The position numbers and the translations under genes are program-made. The notes under the pieces are model-generated. The model saw only the letters and a program-made list of their open reading frames with translations. It did no database searches and had not been told where the DNA came from. This document shows positions 2,317-49,618 of a stretch of DNA of 64,000 nucleotides, one piece after another. This stretch comes from Anaerolineae bacterium (GTDB lineage: Bacteria > Chloroflexota > Anaerolineae > Aggregatilineales > Phototrophicaceae): contig JADLAY010000003.1 of the NCBI GenBank assembly GCA_020849765.1, forward strand, positions 1-64,000, in the 5' to 3' direction. Within the stretch, counting starts at the first letter, position 1, and the number at the start of each line of letters is the position of its first letter.

Positions 2317-3420
2317 ATGCAACACATCGGCATCGACGCCCGGCTCACTTCCTATCGCACCGGCGGCATCAGCACCTACACACGGCGGCTGATCACGGCG
2401 CTCGAACTACTCGATCATGAGCATCAATACACCGTGTTTCACAGCCGCAAGGCGAAGGAGACGATCGTCGAGCGCTTTGGCGCCGCCAGACTGTGGACGC
2501 CCGCCCATCATCGCATCGAGCGGCTGGCACTGACAGTCGAGCTGGCGCGCTTCCGTCTCGACTTGCTCCACAGCCCGGATTTCATCCCGCCGCTGCATGG
2601 CGCGCGCCGCCACGTCATCACCGTGCACGACCTGACCTTCCTCCACTATCCCGACTATTTGACCGCCGACGCGCGCCGCTACTACAACGACCAGATCGCC
2701 TGGGCGGTGCGCCACGCCGATCACATCCTGGTCGATAGCGACGCCACCCGCCGCGACCTGAGCGCCATGCTGAACGTGCCCGACTCCAAGATGACGTTGT
2801 GCATGCTCGGCGTCGACCCGGAATTCCGGCCGCTCTCAGACGACGAGCGCGAACAGTGGCAAGCGCAGCTCGATCTGCCGCAGGATTACCTCCTGTTCGT
2901 CGGCACCTTCGAGCCGCGCAAAAACATCGTCGGCTTGCTCAATGCCTATGCGACACTTATCGAACGCCATCGCGAGATAACACCCCCGCTGGTGTTGGCG
3001 GGCACGCGCGGCTGGCTCTTCGACGAGACGATGGCGCACATCGCCCGGCTAAATCTCGGCGAGCGCGTCATCTGGCGCGAACGGGTTGCCCAGGAAGCGC
3101 TGCCCGCGCTGTATAATCTGGCGCGTGTGCTCGTCCTGCCATCGTTCTACGAGGGCTTCGGCCTGCCGGTGCTGGAGGGGATGGCCTGCGGCACGGTGCC
3201 GATCATCAGCAACCGCTCCTCGCTGCCGGAGGTGGCGGGCGACGCTGGCTTGCAGATCGACCCGGATGATCTTGATACGCTGGTCGCCGCGCTCGAACGC
3301 GCCCTGACTGACGACACCTGGCTGCTTGAGCAGCGCAAGCTGGCGCTGGCGCAGGCGGCGAAATTCACCTGGCGGCACACGGCGGAAGTCGCGCTCGCCA
3401 CCTATCAATCGTTGTTGTGA
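2317..3420 (+). CDS. Glycosyltransferase family 4
   Basis: This 367-residue GT-B enzyme transfers a sugar from an activated donor to a glycan or lipid acceptor at the cytoplasmic face. The N-terminal half carries GGISTYTRRL, the glycine-rich acceptor-side loop of GT4 enzymes, and VITVHDLTFLHYP. The C-terminal donor domain has FVGTFEPRKNI and the EX7E-type signature FYEGFGLPVLEGMACGTVPI, then SSLPEVAGDAG. It resembles MtfB/mannosyltransferase-type GT4 proteins, but donor and acceptor are not predictable. It is the first of three consecutive glycosyltransferase genes. A TTATAC hexamer lies just before the ATG but is too close to drive a leadered transcript. Confidence 0.9.
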   Translation: MQHIGIDARLTSYRTGGISTYTRRLITALELLDHEHQYTVFHSRKAKETIVERFGAARLWTPAHHRIERLALTVELARFRLDLLHSPDFIPPLHGARRHVITVHDLTFLHYPDYLTADARRYYNDQIAWAVRHADHILVDSDATRRDLSAMLNVPDSKMTLCMLGVDPEFRPLSDDEREQWQAQLDLPQDYLLFVGTFEPRKNIVGLLNAYATLIERHREITPPLVLAGTRGWLFDETMAHIARLNLGERVIWRERVAQEALPALYNLARVLVLPSFYEGFGLPVLEGMACGTVPIISNRSSLPEVAGDAGLQIDPDDLDTLVAALERALTDDTWLLEQRKLALAQAAKFTWRHTAEVALATYQSLL

Positions 3421-4640
3421 GGCTGCTCGTGCGGATCTTGATGCTAACCCAGAACCTGCCTTATCCGCCGACGTCGGGCGGCGCGCTGCGCGCCTATGGT
3501 CTGCTGCACAGCCTGCACGCGAACGGTCACAAACTCACGCTGCTCAGCTTCCACAACGGGCGCAAGATGCTCGCTCCGGCGCTGGACAGGTTGTGTACGT
3601 CCGTCATCGCCATCGCCCACCCCACGCGCACGCACCTGATGCGTTTGCAGCAGTTACTGCTGACGATGCAGCCGGACATCGTCCAGCGCATGTCGAGCGA
3701 GCAAATGTGTGCGACTCTCGCCCACCAATTGCGTACACAAACGTACGACGCGGTGCTGTTCGAAGGTCTGGAGATGGCGACCTACCTGCCCTACGCACGG
3801 ACGCTCAAGCCCGGTGCGAAGCTCATTTACGACGCGTTCAACGCCGAATACGCGCTGCAGCGCACCATCGCCCGTGTCGATGCGCGCAACTTGCGCCGGC
3901 TGCCCGCCGCCATCTATTCGCGCGTGCAGGCCGCGCGCATCCATGCCTACGAGCGCTCGATCTGCGAGATGGCCGATGGCGTGATCGCTGTCTCCAAAGA
4001 GGATGCGGCCCTGCTGCGTCCGCTGCGAGGCAAACGGCCGCTGTCGGTCGTGCCGAGCGGCATCTTCGCTGCCAATTATGACGAGGCTGCGCCGCTCGCC
4101 CTCGAACAACCGGCGCTCGTCTTCACCGGCAAGATGGACTACCGGCCCAACGTCGACGCCGTGCTCTGGTTCGCCGATGAAATCCTACCGCGGCTGAAGG
4201 GGACGATCCCCGACCTGCATTTCTACATCGTCGGCCAGAAGCCGAGCGCGGCGCTCGAACCGCTGCAAGTGATGCCCGATGTGGTCGTCACCGGCGCTGT
4301 CGAGGATGTCCAGCCGTATCTGCATGGGGCGGCGGTTTATGTGGCACCCTTGCGCATGGGCAGCGGCACGCGGCTCAAACTGCTGGAAGCGATGGCATCG
4401 GGCTGCGCCATCGTCGCCACCTCGCTGGCGGCGGCGGGCTTGAGCGACGATGTCCGCCAGGCGCTGCGCATCGCCGACGATCCCGAAGCCTTTGCCGAGA
4501 CGATCCTCGCGCTGCTGAATGCCCCTGACGAGCGCGTCCGCCTCGGCGAGGAGGCGCGCACCGTCGTCCGCCAGCATTACGATTGGGCGGCGATTGCGCC
4601 GCAGTTGGTGCAAGCGTTGAAGGATTTCGGCCTTGGATAG
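3417..4640 (+). CDS. Glycosyltransferase family 4
   Basis: This is a 407-residue GT-B fold glycosyltransferase. The N-terminal LMLTQNLPYPPTSGGALRAY loop is typical of the 'sugar transferase, PEP-CTERM/EpsH1-like' GT4 group. The donor domain has FTGKMDYRPNVDAVLWFADEILP, and APLRMGSGTRLKLLEAMASG with the conserved Glu. The GTG at 3417 overlaps the previous stop (4 bp), consistent with translational coupling. A second GTG at 3429 is an alternative start. The enzyme probably acts after the preceding GT4 in one assembly pathway for an exopolysaccharide or surface glycan. Confidence 0.9.
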   Translation: MRLLVRILMLTQNLPYPPTSGGALRAYGLLHSLHANGHKLTLLSFHNGRKMLAPALDRLCTSVIAIAHPTRTHLMRLQQLLLTMQPDIVQRMSSEQMCATLAHQLRTQTYDAVLFEGLEMATYLPYARTLKPGAKLIYDAFNAEYALQRTIARVDARNLRRLPAAIYSRVQAARIHAYERSICEMADGVIAVSKEDAALLRPLRGKRPLSVVPSGIFAANYDEAAPLALEQPALVFTGKMDYRPNVDAVLWFADEILPRLKGTIPDLHFYIVGQKPSAALEPLQVMPDVVVTGAVEDVQPYLHGAAVYVAPLRMGSGTRLKLLEAMASGCAIVATSLAAAGLSDDVRQALRIADDPEAFAETILALLNAPDERVRLGEEARTVVRQHYDWAAIAPQLVQALKDFGLG

Positions 4641-19511: not shown

Positions 19512-19970
19512 TTACAAGGTCGGGTCACGAAATGCGCCCAGATGGCCGAGCAGCGCGTCGATGCCGAGCAAATAGCTACGCCAGCCAAAGCCGCTGATCT
19601 GCCCGACGCAAACCGGTGCGATCAGCGATGTCTGGCGAAAGCTTTCACGCGCGTGGATGTTGGAGAGATGCACCTCGATCACCGGCAGGCTGATGCCGCT
19701 GACGGCATCGCGCAGGGCGACGGACGTGTGCGTGAAGGCGCCGGGGTTGAAGACGATGCCATCCGCCCAATTGCGCGCAACGTGCAGGATGTCGATCAGA
19801 TCGCCCTCGTGGTTGGATTGATCGGCGCGCAGTTCGGTGTTGTGCTTGGAGGCGTGCTGCGCGGCGATGGCATTAATCTGCTCCAGCGTGTACTTGCCGT
19901 AGATTTCCGGCTCGCGCACGCCGAGCAGATTCAGATTTGGCCCATGCAACAAGAGAATATGTCGGGTCAT
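19512..19970 (-). CDS. aroQ: 3-dehydroquinate dehydratase, type II
   Basis: This 152-residue enzyme dehydrates 3-dehydroquinate to 3-dehydroshikimate, shikimate pathway step 3. [20 protein letters not shown] is the type II signature with the flexible lid. [17 protein letters not shown] and [14 protein letters not shown] form the active site (conserved Asn and His). The start overlaps the aroB stop as ATGA. It is the last clear shikimate gene of the aro operon. Confidence 0.96.
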
Positions 19971-21022
19971 CGGATGCTCTCAAGAACTGCAATAACGTCT
20001 TCTTTTGGCACATCTTCCACGATTGTAGGCTGACCCACGTCCTTGAGCAACACAAAGCGCGCATGGCCGGACTGCCATTTTTTGTCCGTCGCCATGGCGG
20101 CCCACAACTGATCGGGGTTCAGACCGCCCAGACGAACCGGCAGACCGACCCCGGCGACCTTGGCTTCGACCATGCCGACCAGATCGGTATCGCACAGTCC
20201 CAGGCGCGCGGACAACCAGGCCGCCGCCACCAGCCCGGCAGCCACCGCTTCGCCATGCGGCATCTGGTAGTGCGTGACGCGCTCGAAGGCGTGTGCGAAC
20301 GTGTGCCCCAGATTGAGATGCGCGCGCACACTCTGCTCAAACGGATCTTGCTCGACAATATCGACCTTGACCTGAACAGCGCGGCGGACGAGCTGTGCGG
20401 TATCTGGCGCGGTCGATTGGCTCGGCGAGAGCATGTCGAGCAGATCGGGATCGGCCAGCAGCCCGTGCTTGATCACCTCGCCGAGGCCGCAGCGCCATTC
20501 GCGTGGCGGCAGCGTGTAGAGCACATTCGGATCGATGAGGACGAGATCAGGCTGTTTGAACGCCCCGACCAGATTCTTGCCTTCCGGCAGATCGACACCG
20601 ACCTTGCCACCGACACTCGAATCGACCATCGACAGCAGGCTGGTTGGCATCTGCGCCAGGCGGACGCCGCGCATGTAGGTGGCCGCGGCGAACCCGGCCG
20701 TATCACCGACCACCCCGCCGCCGAGCGCGACGACCGTGCTCTTGCGATCCAGGTGCGCCGCCACCATCTGCTGGTAGAGATTGGCGACCGTGTTGAGCGT
20801 CTTGTACTGTTCGCCGTCGGGCATGACGATCAGGTGCGCGTCCGGCAGCGCATCACAAAGCGCCTCGCCATAAATCGGCGCCAGCGTTTCGTTGGTGATG
20901 ACCGCGACGCGCTTATCGAGGCCGAATTCCGCCGCGCGCTTGTTCATTCCCGCCAGCAGGCCGCGCTCGATCAGAATCGGGTAGCCGCCGCCGGGCGCTG
21001 TTACGTCGATGCGTTCCGCCAT
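19967..21022 (-). CDS. aroB: 3-dehydroquinate synthase
   Basis: This 351-residue NAD- and metal-dependent cyclase converts DAHP to 3-dehydroquinate. Seen in sequence: [42 protein letters not shown] (dinucleotide site), [30 protein letters not shown], and [13 protein letters not shown] with metal-binding His. It overlaps aroK by 22 bp upstream and aroQ by 4 bp downstream. The length is normal for the family. Confidence 0.97.
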
Positions 21023-21528
21023 GTCCGCAACACTTCCTCGACAATCTGTTCCGGCTGTTTGCCGGTCGTGTCAATCTGATAGGGAATAGATTCATAAATC
21101 GGGCGGCGGCGTTCGAGCAAGGCGCGCCAATCGCCGCGCAGCAGCGGACGATCCATGTCATCGGCCAGCCGTGCCTCAATCGCGTCGGGCGCCGCCATCA
21201 GGCAGATGACGAGCGCGTGTGCCAGCGCGTACGTGCGCGTCCGCTCGTCAATCAGCGAGCCGCCGCCCGTCGCAATCACGACCTCGTCGTCGTCGATCAG
21301 CGCCTGGACGACTTCGCGCTCAAGCTGGCGAAATTCCGGCTCGCCCCACTGCTCAAAAATCTGCGCGATGCTCAGCCCGGCTCGTGCGACGATCGCCTCG
21401 TCGCTGTCGGCAAAGCGCCAACCGAGGCGCTCCGCCACCGCGCGGCCAATCGTCGATTTGCCGGTGCCCATGAAGCCGGTCAGCACGATCGTGCGCTGGC
21501 TCGCATCCCGATCATTCTGGGTAGCCAA
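21001..21528 (-). CDS. aroK: Shikimate kinase
   Basis: This enzyme phosphorylates shikimate at O3 with ATP. It has 175 residues when started at TTG 21528, chosen because GGAG lies 7 nt upstream and the length then equals the family norm. A longer frame upstream only reads through aroC. IVLTGFMGTGKSTIGRAVAERLG holds the P-loop, FADSDEAI the shikimate Asp, and VVIATGGGSLID the GGG substrate motif. RPLLRGDW is the lid region. It overlaps aroC by 17 bp and aroB by 22 bp. Confidence 0.95.
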   Translation of the reverse strand: MATQNDRDASQRTIVLTGFMGTGKSTIGRAVAERLGWRFADSDEAIVARAGLSIAQIFEQWGEPEFRQLEREVVQALIDDDEVVIATGGGSLIDERTRTYALAHALVICLMAAPDAIEARLADDMDRPLLRGDWRALLERRRPIYESIPYQIDTTGKQPEQIVEEVLRTWRNAST

Positions 21529-22690
21529 AACGCCACTCCAGGTTGTCCATCGGCAGATCTTCCAGCCGGGCGCGGCGCAGCGCTTCGAAGCGCGGGCGCA
21601 TCTCGTCGATGCTGTCGCCGCCAATCTTTTCCAGCAGCGCCTCGGTCAGCACGAAGGCCATCATCGCTTCCAGGATCGGCACGGCGCGCGGCGTCGCACA
21701 GTGATCGCTGCGCTCGTAGGTCGTCTTCTCAGTCTCGCCAGTCGCCAGGTTGACCGACGCCAGCGCCTTCATAACGGTCGAGATCGGCTTCATGGCCACG
21801 CGCGCGACAATCGGTTCGCCGGTCGTGATGCCACCTTCCAGCCCACCCGCTCGATTCGAGCTGCGATAGATGTTGCCGTCGTCATCGACCGCGATCTCGT
21901 CGTGCACTTCTGAGCCGCGCTTGCCCGCGTTGGCGAAGGCAGGGCCAATCTCCGCGCCTTTCATGGCGTGGACGCTGACCATCGCCGCAACGATCCGCCC
22001 ATCCAGACGCCGGTCATAATGCACATGCGATCCCAGGCCGGGCGGCACGCCGAGCGCGACGACCTCCATCACCCCGCCAAGCGTATCCTTGTCGACCTTG
22101 GCCTGACGGATTGCTTCATGCATTCCCTCGGCGGCATCGGCGACCGGGCAGCGGACGTCGCTGGCCTCGGCCAGGGTGAAGCGTTCTTCATAGGGCAAAT
22201 CGTCAGGAATCTGCGCGATGACGTCGCCGATCTGGACGACGTAGCCGCCGATCCGTATGCCGAACTCCGCCAGCAGCTTGAGGCAGACCGCGCCGACGGC
22301 GACGCGCATGGTCGTCTCGCGCGCGCTGGCCCGTTCGAGCGCGATACGCAGATCGCGATAGCCATACTTGATCGCGCCCGTCAGGTCGGCGTGGCCGGGC
22401 CTTGGCGTCGTCATCGGCGTGATGTCTTTTTCGCGCCAGTTCTTGAAGTCGCGGTTGACGACGGTCATCGCAAGCGGCGCGCCGGTCGTCTTGCCCGCCG
22501 CCACACCGGAGGTGATGCGCACCTGGTCGCGCTCAATCTGCATCCGTCCACCGCTGCCATAGCCTTCCTGGCGGCGCGCAAGCTGCGGATCGATGTCGTC
22601 AGGCGAAAGCGGCAGCCCGGCGGGCAAGCCTTCGATGATGGCGGTCAGTTCGGGGCCGTGCGATTCGCCGGCAGTCAGGAAACGGATCAT
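21512..22690 (-). CDS. aroC: Chorismate synthase
   Basis: This 392-residue FMN-dependent enzyme forms chorismate from EPSP. ATG 22690 gives the canonical N terminus MIRFLTAGESHGPEL. Other signatures are RRQEGYGSGGRMQIE, RPGHADLTGAIKYGYRDLRIALERASARETT and the C-terminal SNRAGGLEGGITTGEPIVARVAMKPIST. The frame extends upstream of the ATG without conserved sequence. It follows the GNAT gene by 72 bp, the largest gap within the aro operon apart from the one ahead of aroE. Confidence 0.97.
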   Translation of the reverse strand: MIRFLTAGESHGPELTAIIEGLPAGLPLSPDDIDPQLARRQEGYGSGGRMQIERDQVRITSGVAAGKTTGAPLAMTVVNRDFKNWREKDITPMTTPRPGHADLTGAIKYGYRDLRIALERASARETTMRVAVGAVCLKLLAEFGIRIGGYVVQIGDVIAQIPDDLPYEERFTLAEASDVRCPVADAAEGMHEAIRQAKVDKDTLGGVMEVVALGVPPGLGSHVHYDRRLDGRIVAAMVSVHAMKGAEIGPAFANAGKRGSEVHDEIAVDDDGNIYRSSNRAGGLEGGITTGEPIVARVAMKPISTVMKALASVNLATGETEKTTYERSDHCATPRAVPILEAMMAFVLTEALLEKIGGDSIDEMRPRFEALRRARLEDLPMDNLEWRFGYPE

Positions 22691-22762
22691 GCAGGAGACC
22701 TCAGGTATGCTACAAGGTTCAGAAATTCTGACCGTGACACAGGAAATGCCTGAATACAAATA

Positions 22763-23236
22763 TCAATCAATGAACGCTTCCATGCGGTGTTCAAAGTGCT
22801 TGAAGCCGCAGCGTTCGTAAAAGGCGATGGCGCGTTCGTTGAAAGCCCACACGTTCAGCGTCACGCGATGACAACCGACCGACCGCGCGAAGTCGAAGAC
22901 GTGGTTCATGATCTGTTCGCCGTAGCCCCTGCTGCGAAACTCCGGGTTGACCGACATCGCGTCGACGTAGACCAGATTGATGCCGTAGGAAAAGGCGTCC
23001 TCCGGGCGCTCGTAATGCATGACTAGCGCATAAGCCGCCGGGGCACCATCGACCTCGCCAATGAAGACGTAGGTGTTCTCATCTTCCAGGCGCTCGCGCA
23101 CGAGGGCCACGAATTCATCGGTCACGACCAGCGGCTTGAATCGATCCGGGCGCGCGGCGACATGCACCTCGTGCACAGCCAGATTGAGCGAGGCCACCAG
23201 GGCCGCGTCCTCGACGGTCGCGCGGCGGATGTTCAT
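22763..23236 (-). CDS. GNAT family N-acetyltransferase inside the aro operon
   Basis: This is a 157-residue acetyl-CoA-dependent acetyltransferase. MNIRRATVEDAALVASLNL is the typical GNAT start. VDAMSVNPEFRSRGYGEQIMNHVFDFARSVG holds the acetyl-CoA pyrophosphate loop (R-x-R-G-Y-G). LNVWAFNERAIAFYERCGFKHFEHRM is the C-terminal motif B. ATG 23236 follows GGAG by 8 nt and directly follows the aroE stop; an in-frame GTG 9 bp upstream is the alternative. The substrate is unknown. Its place between aroE and aroC may reflect co-regulation only. Confidence 0.88.
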   Translation of the reverse strand: MNIRRATVEDAALVASLNLAVHEVHVAARPDRFKPLVVTDEFVALVRERLEDENTYVFIGEVDGAPAAYALVMHYERPEDAFSYGINLVYVDAMSVNPEFRSRGYGEQIMNHVFDFARSVGCHRVTLNVWAFNERAIAFYERCGFKHFEHRMEAFID

Positions 23237-23237
23237 G

Positions 23238-24056
23238 TCAGGCACTCCTCAGCGATTTGAGCAACGCATCCATCATCACGTCGACCGGCGGTTCGACCCC
23301 CGTCCACAGTTTGAAAGCCGCTGCACCCTGGCGCACGAGCATGCCCGAACCGTTGAACGCCTGCCCGCTGGCGGCTTCAGCCTGGCGCATCAGGTTGGTC
23401 TGCGCGGGTCGATAGATCGTGTCGTAGAGTGTGACGCCCTTCGGAAACGGCACGTTTTCGTGCCAGGGCGTCAGTGTCACGTTGGGCTGCATCCCCGCCG
23501 GCGTGCAGTTGACGATCAACGATGCGCCCCAATCCGCCGCTTCCTGAAGAGTCATCAGGCGAAATGGCACCAGCAGCGTCCGCGCGAGATCCAGAGCACG
23601 CTCCAACGACCGATTGACGACGGCCACTTCCGCGCCGCTCTGCGCCAGGCCATAGACGACCGCCCGCGCCGCGCCACCCGCGCCGAGGACGACGACGCGC
23701 TGCCCTTGAACGGGCACGCCATTGGCCGCCAGATCGCCCAGGAAGCCCGCCACGTCGGTATTCGTGCCGATGCCGGTGCGAAAATCCACCGTATTGACCG
23801 CGCCGACCGTCTGCGCCAGTTGATCGGCTTGAACGTAGCGCATGATCGCCTCTTTGTGCGGCACCGTCACGTTGATGCCAATGAAGTCGTGCCTGCGCAG
23901 TTCATTGACGCTGTGCCCCAGCACATCCGGCGGGATCGCCATCTTGTCATACAACCAGTCCGTCATGCCCAGCGCGGCGAAAGCTGCGTTGTGCATGGCC
24001 GGGCTTAAACTATGATCGATGGGCCAGCCGATGACGCCAACTTTCTGAATAGTCAT
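23238..24056 (-). CDS. aroE: Shikimate dehydrogenase (NADP+)
   Basis: This 272-residue enzyme reduces 3-dehydroshikimate to shikimate. VGVIGWPIDHSLSPAMHNAAF is the substrate-binding start. INVTVPHKEAIM supplies the catalytic Lys, and GIGTNTDVAGFL the catalytic Asp. VVVLGAGGAARAVVYGLAQSG is the nucleotide-binding loop, with NRS following as the NADP-specificity segment. A run of six G lies 5 nt ahead of the ATG. It lies 59 bp downstream of aroA. Confidence 0.96.
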   Translation of the reverse strand: MTIQKVGVIGWPIDHSLSPAMHNAAFAALGMTDWLYDKMAIPPDVLGHSVNELRRHDFIGINVTVPHKEAIMRYVQADQLAQTVGAVNTVDFRTGIGTNTDVAGFLGDLAANGVPVQGQRVVVLGAGGAARAVVYGLAQSGAEVAVVNRSLERALDLARTLLVPFRLMTLQEAADWGASLIVNCTPAGMQPNVTLTPWHENVPFPKGVTLYDTIYRPAQTNLMRQAEAASGQAFNGSGMLVRQGAAAFKLWTGVEPPVDVMMDALLKSLRSA

Positions 24057-24115: not shown

Positions 24116-25426
24116 TTATCCAACCTCGACCGCCCGCACCGCAACATCTGCACCTAACTTCGCCAGCGTTTCCGCATAGCCAGGAAAAGAATCGGAGGCG
24201 CAGCGCGCGTCGTTGACGACGGTGTCGCCGTCCGCGCACAGCCCGGCCACGACCAGACTCATGGCGATGCGGTGATCGTCATGCCCGTCGACGGGCGCGC
24301 CATGCAGAGTCTGCGGCCCGACGAGCATGAAGCCGTCCGCCTGTTCCTCGATCTGCGCGCCCAGCTTGGTTAGCTCCGCGGTCATGACCGCCAGCCGGTC
24401 GGTCTCTTTGACCCGCAGCTCCCCAGCGTCGCGCACGGTCGTCGTCCCCTCCGCTGCCAGCGCCGCCACCATGAAGATCGGGAACTCGTCGATCATGCGC
24501 ACGACCACCTCCCCGCCGACGTCGACGGCGCGCAGGGCGCTATGACGCACGCGGATCGTCCCGACCGGATCGCCCGCTTGCAGGCCGGTCTCTTCGACGG
24601 CGATGTCCGCGCCCATCTCGCGCAGCACGTCGAGCAGGCCAGTGCGCGTCGGATTGATACTGATATTGGTCAGGGTGATGTCGCTGCCAGGGATCAGCAG
24701 CGCGGCGACGATCAGGAAGGCCGCCGACGAGAAGTCGCCCGGTACGGTGAAATCCATCGGGCGCAGCGGCTGCCCCGGCCTGAGCGTCACCGTCGAACCG
24801 TCGACCGCCAGATCGACGCCCATCGCCTTCAGCATCAGCTCGGTGTGATCGCGGCCCGGCCCCGGCTCGACGACGACCGTTTCGCCCTCGGCGAACAGTC
24901 CGGCCAGCAGCACCGCGCTCTTGACCTGTGCACTGGCAACCGGCAGCTCATAGCGAATCCCATGCAGATGCGCCGATTCAATCGTGAGTGGCGCCCGGTC
25001 GTTTTCACCATGAATGTTCGCACCCATCTGCGTCAGCGGCTCGATGATGCGCTTCATCGGGCGGCGCCGCAGCTGCTCACTGCCGTCGAGCACACTCGGA
25101 AACGGCTGGCCGACCATGATGCCCGCCAGCAAGCGGATGCCCGTCCCGGCGTTGACCAGGTCGAGCGGCCCACTGGGCTGCTTCAGTGCGCCACCATGCA
25201 CGGTCAGTTCGGTCGGGCCGTGGCGTTCGACTTCGACGCCCAGCGCGCGGATCGTCGCCAGCGATGCCTCGGTATCCCCGGCGGGCAGCCAGTCGCGGAT
25301 GTGCGTCACGCCATCCGCCAGCGCGCCGAACATGACCGAGCGATGCGAAATCGACTTGTCGCCGGGGACACGCGTCTCACCATGCAGGGCCATCCCCGGT
25401 CGGATCGCAAAGTAATCGACGGCCAT
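24116..25426 (-). CDS. aroA: EPSP synthase (3-phosphoshikimate 1-carboxyvinyltransferase)
   Basis: This enzyme adds enolpyruvate from PEP to shikimate-3-phosphate. It has 436 residues from ATG 25426, chosen because AGAGGA precedes it by 9 nt and the tyrA stop lies 1 bp before. VPGDKSISHRSVMFGALADG, LVNAGTGIRLLAGIM and DGSEQLRRRPMKRIIEPLTQMGA form the first domain. GDFSSAAFLIVAALL and DEFPIFMVAALAAEGTT, with the ELRVKETDRLAVMTAEL block, form the second. All canonical PEP-site basic residues appear kept. Confidence 0.97.
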   Translation of the reverse strand: MAVDYFAIRPGMALHGETRVPGDKSISHRSVMFGALADGVTHIRDWLPAGDTEASLATIRALGVEVERHGPTELTVHGGALKQPSGPLDLVNAGTGIRLLAGIMVGQPFPSVLDGSEQLRRRPMKRIIEPLTQMGANIHGENDRAPLTIESAHLHGIRYELPVASAQVKSAVLLAGLFAEGETVVVEPGPGRDHTELMLKAMGVDLAVDGSTVTLRPGQPLRPMDFTVPGDFSSAAFLIVAALLIPGSDITLTNISINPTRTGLLDVLREMGADIAVEETGLQAGDPVGTIRVRHSALRAVDVGGEVVVRMIDEFPIFMVAALAAEGTTTVRDAGELRVKETDRLAVMTAELTKLGAQIEEQADGFMLVGPQTLHGAPVDGHDDHRIAMSLVVAGLCADGDTVVNDARCASDSFPGYAETLAKLGADVAVRAVEVG

Positions 25427-25427
25427 G

Positions 25428-26315
25428 CTATGCATTCCTCTCATATTTATGCGACCAATCCAGGCGCGCCGCACGCACCGGACGCAGCCGCTCGGCCAAC
25501 TGCTCGGCATCGCGATCGATCAACGCCGCTTCGAGCAGCGCCAACTGCGCGCGGAAATGCGCCAGCAGCGCGGCCACCGCCTGGGTATTGGTGCTCAGGA
25601 TATCGCCCATCATGTCGAGATTGCTCGCTGCCAGCCGCGACGTATCGCGGAAGCCGCCCGCCGCCAGTTCCCAGACGGCCTCGTCGCGGTCGCCCTCCTG
25701 CTTGACGGTGGCGACCAACGCCGCGCTGAGCAGATACGGCAAATGGCTGATCGCCGCCACCGTGCGATCGTGGCGATGCGCATCCATCTCGATCGGCTCG
25801 GCTTCCAGCGCATCCACGAACGCCAGCGAACGCAGCCGGGCCGCCGGGGTCGTGCGCCGCGTCGGGCAGAGCACGAACGGGCGGTGGCGGTACAGACTCG
25901 CGTCGCTCGCCTCGATGCCGTGAACTTCCTTACCCGTCATCGGATGCCCGCCGACCGCCTGAATGCCGATCGGCAGCGCGCCGAGCGCCTTGCAGATGTC
26001 TTCCTTCGTGCTGCCCAGGTCGATCAGGAAGGTGTTCGAGCGCAGGTAGGCGCCGATGCGCCCGTCGACGATCTGGATGATCGTGCGCACGGGCGCCGCC
26101 AGCACGACCACGTCGGCATCGGCGACTCCAGCTTTGAGATCATCCGTCGCATGGTCGACGATGCGCTCGCGCAGGGCGTAATCGCGCGTCGGTGCGCTGC
26201 TATCGACACCGGTGATGCGATCAACGCAGCCGCGTAAGGCCAGCGCCACCGACCCACCCATCAGACCCAGACCGACCACGGCCAGATGCCGGGCATGAAA
26301 ACCTGTGGTTGCCAT
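25428..26315 (-). CDS. tyrA: Prephenate dehydrogenase
   Basis: This 295-residue NAD(P)-dependent enzyme converts prephenate to 4-hydroxyphenylpyruvate for tyrosine. LAVVGLGLMGGSVALALRG is the Rossmann loop. VLAAPVRTIIQIVDG and LIDLGSTKEDICKAL follow. VGGHPMTGKEVHGIEASDASLYRHRPFVLCP contains the conserved catalytic His. RDTSRLAASNLDMMGDIL belongs to the C-terminal dimer domain. No ACT domain is visible, so feedback by tyrosine through an ACT domain is not expected. The RBS GAGG is 5 nt before ATG. It lies 7 bp after aroH. Confidence 0.95.
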   Translation of the reverse strand: MATTGFHARHLAVVGLGLMGGSVALALRGCVDRITGVDSSAPTRDYALRERIVDHATDDLKAGVADADVVVLAAPVRTIIQIVDGRIGAYLRSNTFLIDLGSTKEDICKALGALPIGIQAVGGHPMTGKEVHGIEASDASLYRHRPFVLCPTRRTTPAARLRSLAFVDALEAEPIEMDAHRHDRTVAAISHLPYLLSAALVATVKQEGDRDEAVWELAAGGFRDTSRLAASNLDMMGDILSTNTQAVAALLAHFRAQLALLEAALIDRDAEQLAERLRPVRAARLDWSHKYERNA

Positions 26316-26322
26316 TTACGCC

Positions 26323-26733
26323 TCACCCGTTCACATGCTCGTCCGCGCCGTCGATCACGATCTTGTTCGTCGGGTACATGTCCGGGCGCAGGCGTTCCGC
26401 GCCGTGCATGTAGACGTGGCGGATATCCGAGAGCGCCTTGGGTGTGTTCCAGTGCATCAGCACGCGGATGCACATCGGCACGCCATCCGGGCAATTGATC
26501 TCCTGTGCACCGAGCAGCGCTACCTCCCACCAGCCAACCGCCCGCGCCGCCTGCGCCGGAAAGGCCGCGTCCAGGTCGGGCGTCGTCGTGAAGAAGACGC
26601 TCGCCACGTGCGACTCCTCGATCCCGTTGGCGTCGATCATCGCCTGAAGCAGTTCCTTGGTCGCGCTGATGATGACTTCAGCGCTGTTGGCCGTGACGGT
26701 CGTCGCGCCGCGCACGCCACGTATCATCGACAT
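26323..26733 (-). CDS. aroH: Chorismate mutase, AroH type
   Basis: This 136-residue trimeric AroH-class chorismate mutase makes prephenate. The start MSMIRGVRGATTV (ATG 26733, AGGAGGA 7 nt upstream) is family-typical. ESHVASVFFTTTPDLDAAFPAQAAR contains the Arg/Glu active-site strand. INCPDGVPMCIRVLMHWNT carries the conserved Cys-Arg segment, and DIRHVYMHGAERLRPD is the C-terminal block. It is the first structural gene of the aro operon, directly behind a leader peptide and terminator. With tyrA next, carbon is directed to tyrosine and phenylalanine. Confidence 0.96.
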   Translation of the reverse strand: MSMIRGVRGATTVTANSAEVIISATKELLQAMIDANGIEESHVASVFFTTTPDLDAAFPAQAARAVGWWEVALLGAQEINCPDGVPMCIRVLMHWNTPKALSDIRHVYMHGAERLRPDMYPTNKIVIDGADEHVNG

Positions 26734-26759
26734 CACAAAATCCTCCTGCTGAACACAAT

Positions 26760-26792
26760 AAAAAAGGCGCGGAGCGTTTTGCTCTGCGCCTT
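26760..26792 (-). terminator. Attenuator terminator ahead of aroH
   Basis: AAGGCGC at the 5' side pairs with GCGCCTT (7 bp). A single A-C mismatch follows, then GAGC/GCTC (4 bp), with an AAAAC loop and a run of six T at 26765-26760. This is a strong intrinsic terminator. It lies 27 nt before the aroH start and after the leader peptide stop, as required for attenuation. Confidence 0.9.
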
Positions 26793-26843
26793 GTGGTTCG
26801 CCGTTCGTTCTGGTTAAGAGTTCGGCATCCCTACACGCGGCAT

Positions 26844-26924
26844 TCAACGCCCCGATTCACGTGGTTTCGTGCGGTAGTAATAATAAAACGCGTATGGGGT
26901 ACCGAAAAAGCCGCGATCAGACAC
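26844..26924 (-). CDS. Leader peptide rich in Phe and Tyr codons
   Basis: A GTG-initiated frame of 26 codons plus TGA. GGAG sits 7 nt upstream, and the promoter -10 lies about 32 bp upstream. The control region reads FFGTPYAFYYYYR: three Phe and five Tyr codons in the stretch of residues 6-17, including four consecutive Tyr. The remaining residues are polar. The composition, position before a terminator and location ahead of aroH-tyrA-aroA argue that it is a control peptide rather than a functional protein. It is too short for routine gene callers. Confidence 0.85.
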   Translation of the reverse strand: MSDRGFFGTPYAFYYYYRTKPRESGR

Positions 26925-26955
26925 GTCAACTCTCCATGAGGAAAAGTGTGCGTTG

Positions 26956-26984
26956 AGCATAGCATGAGGCATGTGGGCTGTCAA
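26956..26984 (-). promoter_or_regulatory. Sigma-70-type promoter of the aro operon
   Basis: TTGACA (26984-26979), a 17-bp spacer and TATGCT (26961-26956) make a near-consensus promoter. The predicted start is around 26949, 25 nt ahead of the leader peptide GTG. It lies in the gap between the GT87-like gene and the leader. Confidence 0.88.
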
Positions 26985-26999
26985 CAAAACGAACACCGA

Positions 27000-28118
27000 T
27001 CAAGCGGCCTGTTGCGTCACCCGCCTAATGTTCGGATGGACTCCACGTCGGCCAACCTCATGCACGATGACGATCGTCGCCAGCAGCACAACCGGCATCC
27101 ACCAGAACTGCGCCTCGTCGCCACTCGTCGTCAGGCGAATGTGTATCGCCAAAATCCATGTGGCAGCATAGACCACAATCATCAGGCCACGCAGCGCGAA
27201 CGATTTTGCAGCAATGAGCGTCGCGACAAACAGGGGAATCAAGAGCACAAAATCCCAACTCCATACGTAGGGCACCACCATCAGGTTGAGTGCCATCGTC
27301 CACAATATCCCCTGTCGCGGCTGCTGCCAGCGCCATAGTCCCAGACACAAGGCCACCACAGCCACCATCCCGGCCACTACGTCGCCAAGAGTGCCCCACG
27401 ACTCGCCGAGTACAACAAACAGCGATGGATGTCGCCACCCAGGATTGCGCCCCAGTGCCGCCTGAAAGCCCGCCAACCAATCCGAATAGCCAAGCCAAAG
27501 CGGTAAGGTAAGGAGTATTGACGTGACGGCAAAAGCACCTGCAAATTTCGCCATCTCTCCCCATCTGCGCTGGCGGATCAGGTAAACCCAATAGCCGAGC
27601 ACGGGCAAGATGAGCAGCTGAGGCTTGCCCGAGGCCAACGCACATAACACACCCGCAGCCACGGGAGGTGGATCATCTCGAAAGAATGCCAGCATCAGGA
27701 GCGCCATCGCAAACACGGTGTATTGGCCAAGGCTCAAATGTGAAATGAACGGTGGAAAGAGCAAAGCCAGGGTAAAGACAATGCCGATAGTGAACAGTGA
27801 TGGTCGCGCCGTTCGCAAAAGCATGACGATGCAGGCGATGTAGAGCACAACGGTGAGGAGAAGCCATAGATTAGTCGCGACTTGCAATGGGAGCCAGCCG
27901 ATAGCGAAGAACGCTCCCACGGAAGTCGGCAGCCAAATGGCATTCGTGCCTTCAAACAAGACGTCGACCGTGTACGGATCGCGCCCGGTCACCAATAGAT
28001 GCGTTGGAGACCAGAGATTGCTGCGAAAATCCCAGCTTGTGAGCGTCTGTGTTGCGACGAAAGCCCCCGCCGCAATTACCAGACCCAGGATGATGACAAA
28101 ACCCAACCCCCGGCGCAT
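27000..28118 (-). CDS. GT87-like polytopic membrane mannosyltransferase-type protein
   Basis: This 372-residue protein has about ten transmembrane helices and fits the DUF2029/GT87 GT-C group, whose members use polyprenyl-phosphate mannose. The first extracellular loop contains DFRSNLWSPTHLLVTGRDPY, resembling the conserved Asp and 'G.dpY' motif. SLGQYTVFAMALLMLAFF and LASGKPQLLILPVLGY are also typical. It sits 86 bp downstream of trpA on the same strand and ends just before the aro promoter. No terminator was seen between it and trpA, so read-through is possible. It has no known metabolic link to tryptophan. Confidence 0.72.
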   Translation of the reverse strand: MRRGLGFVIILGLVIAAGAFVATQTLTSWDFRSNLWSPTHLLVTGRDPYTVDVLFEGTNAIWLPTSVGAFFAIGWLPLQVATNLWLLLTVVLYIACIVMLLRTARPSLFTIGIVFTLALLFPPFISHLSLGQYTVFAMALLMLAFFRDDPPPVAAGVLCALASGKPQLLILPVLGYWVYLIRQRRWGEMAKFAGAFAVTSILLTLPLWLGYSDWLAGFQAALGRNPGWRHPSLFVVLGESWGTLGDVVAGMVAVVALCLGLWRWQQPRQGILWTMALNLMVVPYVWSWDFVLLIPLFVATLIAAKSFALRGLMIVVYAATWILAIHIRLTTSGDEAQFWWMPVVLLATIVIVHEVGRRGVHPNIRRVTQQAA

Positions 28119-49283: not shown

Positions 49284-49465
49284 CTGTTGATAAGTCCACC
49301 TGCCGTGCCGTGTGTGCGAGTTCTGAACCTGCGTTAGCAGGTGGGAATTCACCTGGCGATGGGGTCTTGGCTACGCAAGCCTATCACCTTGCCGCCAAAC
49401 GGCAACTCCCGTTCTTTGGGTGTTGGCTCAAAACGTTGGCGCAGCATCACGCACACAGCAGGTAT
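49253..49465 (-). ncRNA. Structured RNA of about 200 nt with competing helices (riboswitch-like or 6S-like)
   Basis: A TATAAG -10 (49477-49472) predicts a minus-strand start near 49465. The RNA would close with CTGCTGT (49461-49455) pairing to ACAGCAG (49287-49281), which overlaps the foot of the terminator. Segment CACCTGC (49343-49337) can pair in three exclusive ways: with CAGGTG at 49355-49350, with GCAGGT at 49332-49327 (tetraloop hairpin), or with GCAGGTGG at 49303-49296. The length and an AGGTTCAGA...CACGGCA stretch recall 6S RNA; the terminator just before a start codon recalls a riboswitch. Neither identity is proven. The -35 is weak. Confidence 0.55.
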
Positions 49466-49618
49466 GTATCACTTATACCATGCGCCTTGATTGCAGAAAA
49501 GGGCTAAAATGTTGCGGATGAATTAACCGCATGTGAAGCTTCACGGAGGGGCAGAAACCGTTCGCAGTATTTGCCTTTCTTGAGCATGATCCTCGCAAGC
49601 CAAATCAGGAGAAGCACA

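Follow-up and report, generated by a model that had tools for sequence, protein, structure and literature searches.

Background

Until a His case was reported in Bacilli, leader-peptide systems had been described from Proteobacteria and Actinobacteria alone (Naville and Gautheret, PMC2965389), and a later survey lists T-boxes, and no leader peptides, for the Chloroflexi (PMC3766115). The pheL-pheA and pheST attenuators of Escherichia coli have leaders rich in cognate codons and alternative 1:2, 2:3, and 3:4 hairpins (PMC11802643). A mixed Phe-Tyr-Phe leader, AroR, precedes aroF of Corynebacterium glutamicum and controls this aromatic pathway gene (DAHP synthase) by ribosome-mediated attenuation (Neshat et al. 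2014, as described in PMC11802643). AroR (Actinobacteria) has a short FYF motif, and the leader is reported to respond to Phe, not Tyr.

We analysed a 64-kb stretch of DNA (the window) from an Anaerolineae bacterium and read the region upstream of its aroH gene, with high confidence, as a putative ribosome-mediated transcription attenuator of the trp/pheA type that would sense charged tRNA-Phe/Tyr and control the aro operon. The aro leader resembles pheL-pheA and pheST in its cognate-codon-rich frame and alternative hairpins, but those are Phe-only systems of Proteobacteria with other target genes. With the trpL-trp attenuator of E. coli and Actinobacteria (PMC1262725) it would share the overall mechanism and the four-segment logic, whereas trpL uses Trp codons, and in the aro element the main partners of segment 2 are the loop and 3' arm of the terminator. 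In the aro cluster, the trp operon has a T-box in place of a trpL-type leader. T-box leaders (RF00230) likewise attenuate transcription of amino-acid genes in the Chloroflexi (PMC3766115), but they bind uncharged tRNA directly, whereas the aro element has a predicted translated leader and no T-box match.

The Rfam Phe_leader family covers leaders of the E. coli pheL type. Rfam searches returned no match in 26700-27010 (threshold E<=5) or in ten homologous loci (threshold E<=1), and membership in the Phe, Trp, His, Leu, or Thr leader families was ruled out for lack of a covariance-model match. A T-box at the aroH site was ruled out in the same way, the only T-box found being upstream of trpE.

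An earlier note on this DNA had proposed that sensing of both Phe and Tyr would be new. This is put too strongly, because AroR is an earlier mixed leader (PMC11802643). Unlike AroR, the aro leader has up to 5-7 aromatic codons, is dominated by Tyr, includes Trp in some lineages, and stands before chorismate mutase and the whole shikimate pathway. Given the AroR precedent, the comparison of sequences points to a known kind of attenuator in a new family, the novelty apparently lying in the family itself, the phylum, and the target operon. We found no report of a leader-peptide attenuator in Chloroflexota in the open-access literature searched, although the supplements of automated leader surveys may hold an unnamed listing (e.g., that of PMC4833913, a survey which included Chloroflexi genomes).

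Leader Frame, Promoter, and Operon

The leader region sits on the minus strand, as do all features given here for the window, and is bounded by a glycosyltransferase-like ORF that ends at 27000 and by the aroH ATG (26733). A sigma-70-type promoter, TTGACA-N17-TATGCT with an extended TG (26984-26956), has 10/12 matches; its -35 box TTGACA (26984-26979) and -10 box TATGCT (26961-26956) are separated by a 17-nt spacer. The ribosome-binding site GGAG (26935-26932) lies 7 nt 5' of the start of a 26-codon frame, VSDRGFFGTPYAFYYYYRTKPRESGR, which runs from GTG at 26924 to TGA at 26844. This frame holds the regulatory run F-Y-Y-Y-Y (TTT TAT TAT TAC TAC, 26888-26874) and, 5' of it, FF (TTT TTC, 26909-26904) and Y (TAC, 26894-26892). 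A short leader ORF with a ribosome-binding site and a run of cognate codons, as in known attenuators, is thus present. Direct re-reading of the letters confirmed the promoter, the GGAG, the Phe/Tyr frame, and a terminator with T6 before aroH, all as the earlier note had placed them. That the leader is translated, that ribosomes stall on it, that transcription terminates, and which amino acid is decisive (Phe or Tyr) we infer from sequence. In homologous loci a promoter of at least 10/12 matches was present in 81/123, compared with 0/123 control stretches within aroH.

The nine-gene order claimed for the operon, aroH-tyrA-aroA-aroE-GNAT-aroC-aroK-aroB-aroQ, was borne out by NCBIfam/Pfam assignments. 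The genes encode monofunctional chorismate mutase (aroH, TIGR01796, 26323-26733), prephenate dehydrogenase (tyrA, 25428-26315), EPSP synthase (aroA, 24116-25510), shikimate dehydrogenase (aroE, 23238-24056), a GNAT acetyltransferase (22763-23245, RimI-like, below cut-off), chorismate synthase (aroC, 21512-22759), shikimate kinase (aroK, 21001-21624), 3-dehydroquinate synthase (aroB, 19967-21022), and type II 3-dehydroquinate dehydratase (aroQ, 19512-19970). The aroC and aroK coordinates are those of the ORFs as called, and the true starts are probably inside. The downstream genes are exactly those of the Tyr/Phe/chorismate pathway, which supports the attenuator. The GNAT gene inside the shikimate operon is retained in some relatives.

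The next gene after aroQ is glnA, and a complete trp operon including trpS stands upstream of the aro leader. The T-box leader upstream of trpE (37833-37568) scored 91.6 bits against a gathering score of 93 (E 1e-20), and its specifier, read by eye as UGG-A, corresponds to Trp. Trp is probably sensed by this neighbouring T-box, which could explain why the aro leader of the source genome has no Trp codon. The window also holds a 6S RNA (RF00013) at 49293-49467 (60.5 bits).

Conservation in Relatives

The scan looked for a short ORF with a densely aromatic stretch, followed by a hairpin and a T run. With the thresholds set for it, the 64-kb window gave one site only, the aroH leader. The same scan of 1.11 Mb, made up of the relatives' 10-kb loci on both strands, gave 32 sites, all directly upstream of aroH (for two of the 32, the aroH start of the locus is 3934 and 3993). 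A covariance model run on the 6.3-Mb source genome returned one site with E 4.6e-12, the next best having E 1.8. A match of the model in the phylum search, L248, was set aside as a plain terminator with no aromatic leader.

Within the same order, 123/130 aroH loci carry the aromatic-run leader and terminator. Of the seven loci without a call, two are cut by contig ends, three (L004, L016, and L035) lack a terminator close to aroH, and two (L014 and L067) were uncalled. In L004 and L016 aroH comes directly after trpA, as if the operon had fused to trp. Differences in the aromatic run between relatives keep F, Y, or W in 58% of cases versus 22% for random single changes, related pairs being non-independent. 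The Phe/Tyr frame, the terminator, and the pairing are conserved across the order and beyond, as the earlier note had asked to be checked by comparison of relatives.

Since the 1.11-Mb scan gave aroH-upstream sites only, a chance ORF beside an unrelated terminator was ruled out. We likewise give virtually no credence to the related explanation in which the hairpin merely closes the upstream gene (GT87) at its 3' end and the aromatic frame is an intergenic ORF that arose by chance. The glycosyltransferase-like ORF does end just upstream, at 27000, and genes often end in intrinsic terminators, but the promoter and leader stand between the GT87 gene and the terminator, and the aromatic run, the terminator, and their spacing are kept in the order while the upstream gene varies (often trpA).

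Terminator

Between the leader ORF and the first structural gene, where an attenuator would have it, lies an intrinsic terminator hairpin, AAGGCGCAGAGC-AAAAC-GCTCCGCGCCTT (26792-26764), with a fold of -19.1 kcal/mol. Its arms (26792-26781 and 26775-26764) enclose the AAAAC loop, and a T6 tract read directly from the sequence (26765-26760) overlaps the stem base. The hairpin is GC-rich and the terminator ends 26 bases 5' of aroH. In the relatives' alignment its covariation was 0.207 compared with 0.147 when shuffled (0/500). A simple pattern scanner did not list a terminator at this site, although the fold is ~-19 kcal/mol; the stem has a central mismatch, which probably caused the miss.

A switch that acts via translation or Rho, or a role of the peptide in trans, in place of intrinsic termination seems very improbable to us. 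The E. coli tna leader is an example of such alternative modes. Another is peTrpL of S. meliloti (PMC7298713), and the tract after the hairpin in Chloroflexaceae-type genomes is C/T-rich, not pure T. Against this, in the source genome and nearly all sampled Anaerolineae the hairpin is followed by a T5-T8 tract and is clear of the aroH ribosome-binding site, and intrinsic termination is the reading kept below.

Antiterminator Pairing

Relative coordinates count from where the last aromatic codon ends. Three pairings vie for segment 2 (about +14 to +36): those with the terminator, with the pre-run codons, and within a local hairpin. In the source genome the segment 2 core (CGGGGCGTT, 26854-26846), the predicted 5' strand of the antiterminator, overlaps the leader stop codon and pairs with 26778-26770 (AACGCTCCG), a segment of the terminator loop and 3' arm, in the stalled-state fold.

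The pairing of segment 2 with the terminator was compared with that of partners swapped between species, and gave z -11.2 for the whole terminator. In 77 sequences the own pairs were far more stable than the swapped ones (z -11), and in more divergent subsets they gave z -6.7 (31 sequences under 65% similar) and z -4.7 (13 under 58% similar), with 0/5000 permutations in each of the three similarity sets. For +16 to +32 with the terminator z was -12.4. The contact is strongest at the terminator loop and proximal 3' arm and reaches over the whole hairpin. In the same swap test the pre-run stretch and the stretch after segment 2 showed no own-pair signal with the terminator. Dinucleotide shuffling of one strand left z about -2, at most -3.9, for both the segment 2:terminator and the segment 1:2 pairing; since a shuffled strand still gives about -2, base composition accounts for only part of the pairing signal.

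Unusual terminators have a matching segment 2, as in L020 (GGTGTGAG : CTCACACC), L022 (GGCAGATGT : ACATCTGTC), and L031 (GAGGCGTTGA : TCAACGCCTC). In fixed alignment columns the correct register of the antiterminator was 77% paired versus 23-55% when slid, and the covariation there was not significant (57/500 for the score, 34/500 for paired cells), probably because loop lengths differ.

In the folds of the stalled state, the RNA was free from 9 nt past the final aromatic codon, with the 3' arm hidden over its last 5 nt. Under these settings the terminator was absent from the MFE fold in 83% of the 77 sequences versus 30% with segment 2 shuffled, and the source genome formed CGGGGCGUU : AACGCUCCG. 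In full-length stalled folds the terminator was absent in 27% versus 4% with segment 2 shuffled. Without a ribosome it was lost in 9%, and in 0% when segment 2 was masked. As the terminator wins in 73% of the full-length stalled folds, the switch must be kinetic. In the folding model these are the states needed for attenuation, and the choice falls before the polymerase has moved far. The antiterminator that the earlier note had suggested looking for by alternative folding was thus found: it is partner-specific (z -11.2) and, in the stalled-state folds, mutually exclusive with the terminator, as in an attenuator.

Helix 1:2 and the Local Hairpin

In the MFE fold, segment 1, made of the codons just 5' of the aromatic run (26906-26889), is the 5' strand of helix 1:2, and CGCGTGTAGGGATGCCGAA (26839-26821) is its 3' strand. 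In the own-against-swapped comparison, the region -40 to -15 shows specific pairing with the segment 2 region of its own sequence (z -7.3), and the pre-run and post-run regions gave z -5.7. A protector helix that overlaps the control codons, as known for attenuators, therefore has the z of -7.3 behind it. The 11-position 1:2 pairing put forward in the earlier note is present within this longer helix, and the regional pairing is kept; the exact pairs are lost in the nearest relative, L003. Together with conservation, the partner-specific 1:2 and 2:terminator pairings support the attenuator interpretation of that note.

Right after the Tyr run the MFE fold has a local hairpin, CCGCACG / CGTG-AAT-CGG (26874-26851), which in relatives takes the form CCAC/CGAC-AUAGn-GUGG/GUCG. 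Its covariation in 37 relatives was 0.267 compared with 0.131 when shuffled (0/500); slid registers gave 0.075 at most. Own-against-swapped pairing gave z -1.2 in coarse windows and z -4.8 in narrower ones. The idea that this CCAC/GUGG hairpin is the sole 1:2 helix was dropped, because the region 5' of the run also pairs with segment 2.

The local hairpin has an (A)CAUA(G) loop that is kept across classes and reading frames (e.g., L015, L026, L037, and L208). In L028-L030 it is conserved despite a differing frame, which indicates that it is constrained as RNA. Such a loop would suit a metabolite- or protein-binding riboswitch or antiterminator, with the loop as recognition element and the leader peptide in a secondary role. 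We consider this very improbable: codon-level conservation of the aromatic run would be purposeless under a riboswitch model, and the Rfam searches described above gave nothing at the source site or in the ten relatives' loci. The ribosome-mediated attenuator remains the preferred reading.

Proposed Mechanism

Transcription would start at about 26949, and a ribosome would set out on the 26-codon leader. With charged tRNA-Tyr or tRNA-Phe in short supply, it would stall in the FYYYY run, covering both segment 1 and the local hairpin's 5' side and leaving segment 2 (CGGGGCGUU) free. Once free, segment 2 would pair with the loop of the terminator and the proximal part of its 3' arm, and in many homologs further towards the 5' arm. 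This would keep the terminator from closing, and the polymerase would read into aroH through aroQ. When Phe and Tyr are ample, the ribosome would reach the stop codon, which in the source genome is inside segment 2, and mask this segment. After its release helix 1:2 would hold segment 2, so that the terminator could form and transcription would stop near 26760. In many homologs the stop codon is ~30 nt past segment 2; direct masking is impossible there and helix 1:2 must act.

Distribution in Chloroflexota

The aroH leader arrangement was found in nearly all other sampled Anaerolineae families. It was also found in Chloroflexia, among others in what we take to be a Chloroflexaceae-type family (complete 4.6-5.3 Mb genomes) and a Herpetosiphon-type family (6.35-Mb chromosome), and the carriers include L208 (Oscillochloris) and L195 (Roseilinea). 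It was not found in several other Chloroflexota families, each represented by a single sample, and a search of plasmids gave no match. The presence of the family in two Chloroflexota classes, tied to one operon, suggests that the mechanism is old outside Proteobacteria and Actinobacteria, and opens aromatic amino-acid control in cultured Chloroflexia to testing. The operon is unusually broad, and the family also has a conserved CAUAG loop. A Phe/Tyr leader switch beside a Trp T-box in one cluster offers a clean natural comparison of two strategies.

Leaders of some lineages have added Trp codons (WVWFGFYFYF, YYFWFWYF), and from these codons the leader would sense Trp as well there. A more speculative extension, which we hold to be rather doubtful, is an ancestral Chloroflexota-specific family that combines Phe, Tyr, and in some cases Trp in one leader beside a Trp T-box, with the CAUAG hairpin as a further functional element (a pause site, a factor site, or a second switch).

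In two genomes of the WVWF-type leader family the aro operon includes a tyrosyl-tRNA synthetase gene, between aroE and aroC (L254, 11556-12854, minus strand; L255, 5518-6939, plus strand). DAHP synthase follows aroH in many relatives, and in one genome (L252; L266) a similar leader stands before DAHP synthase itself. Beside this leader-bearing DAHP synthase (L252), L266 has at 3107-4261 (minus strand) a methyltransferase domain with an AroH-type chorismate mutase fused behind it.
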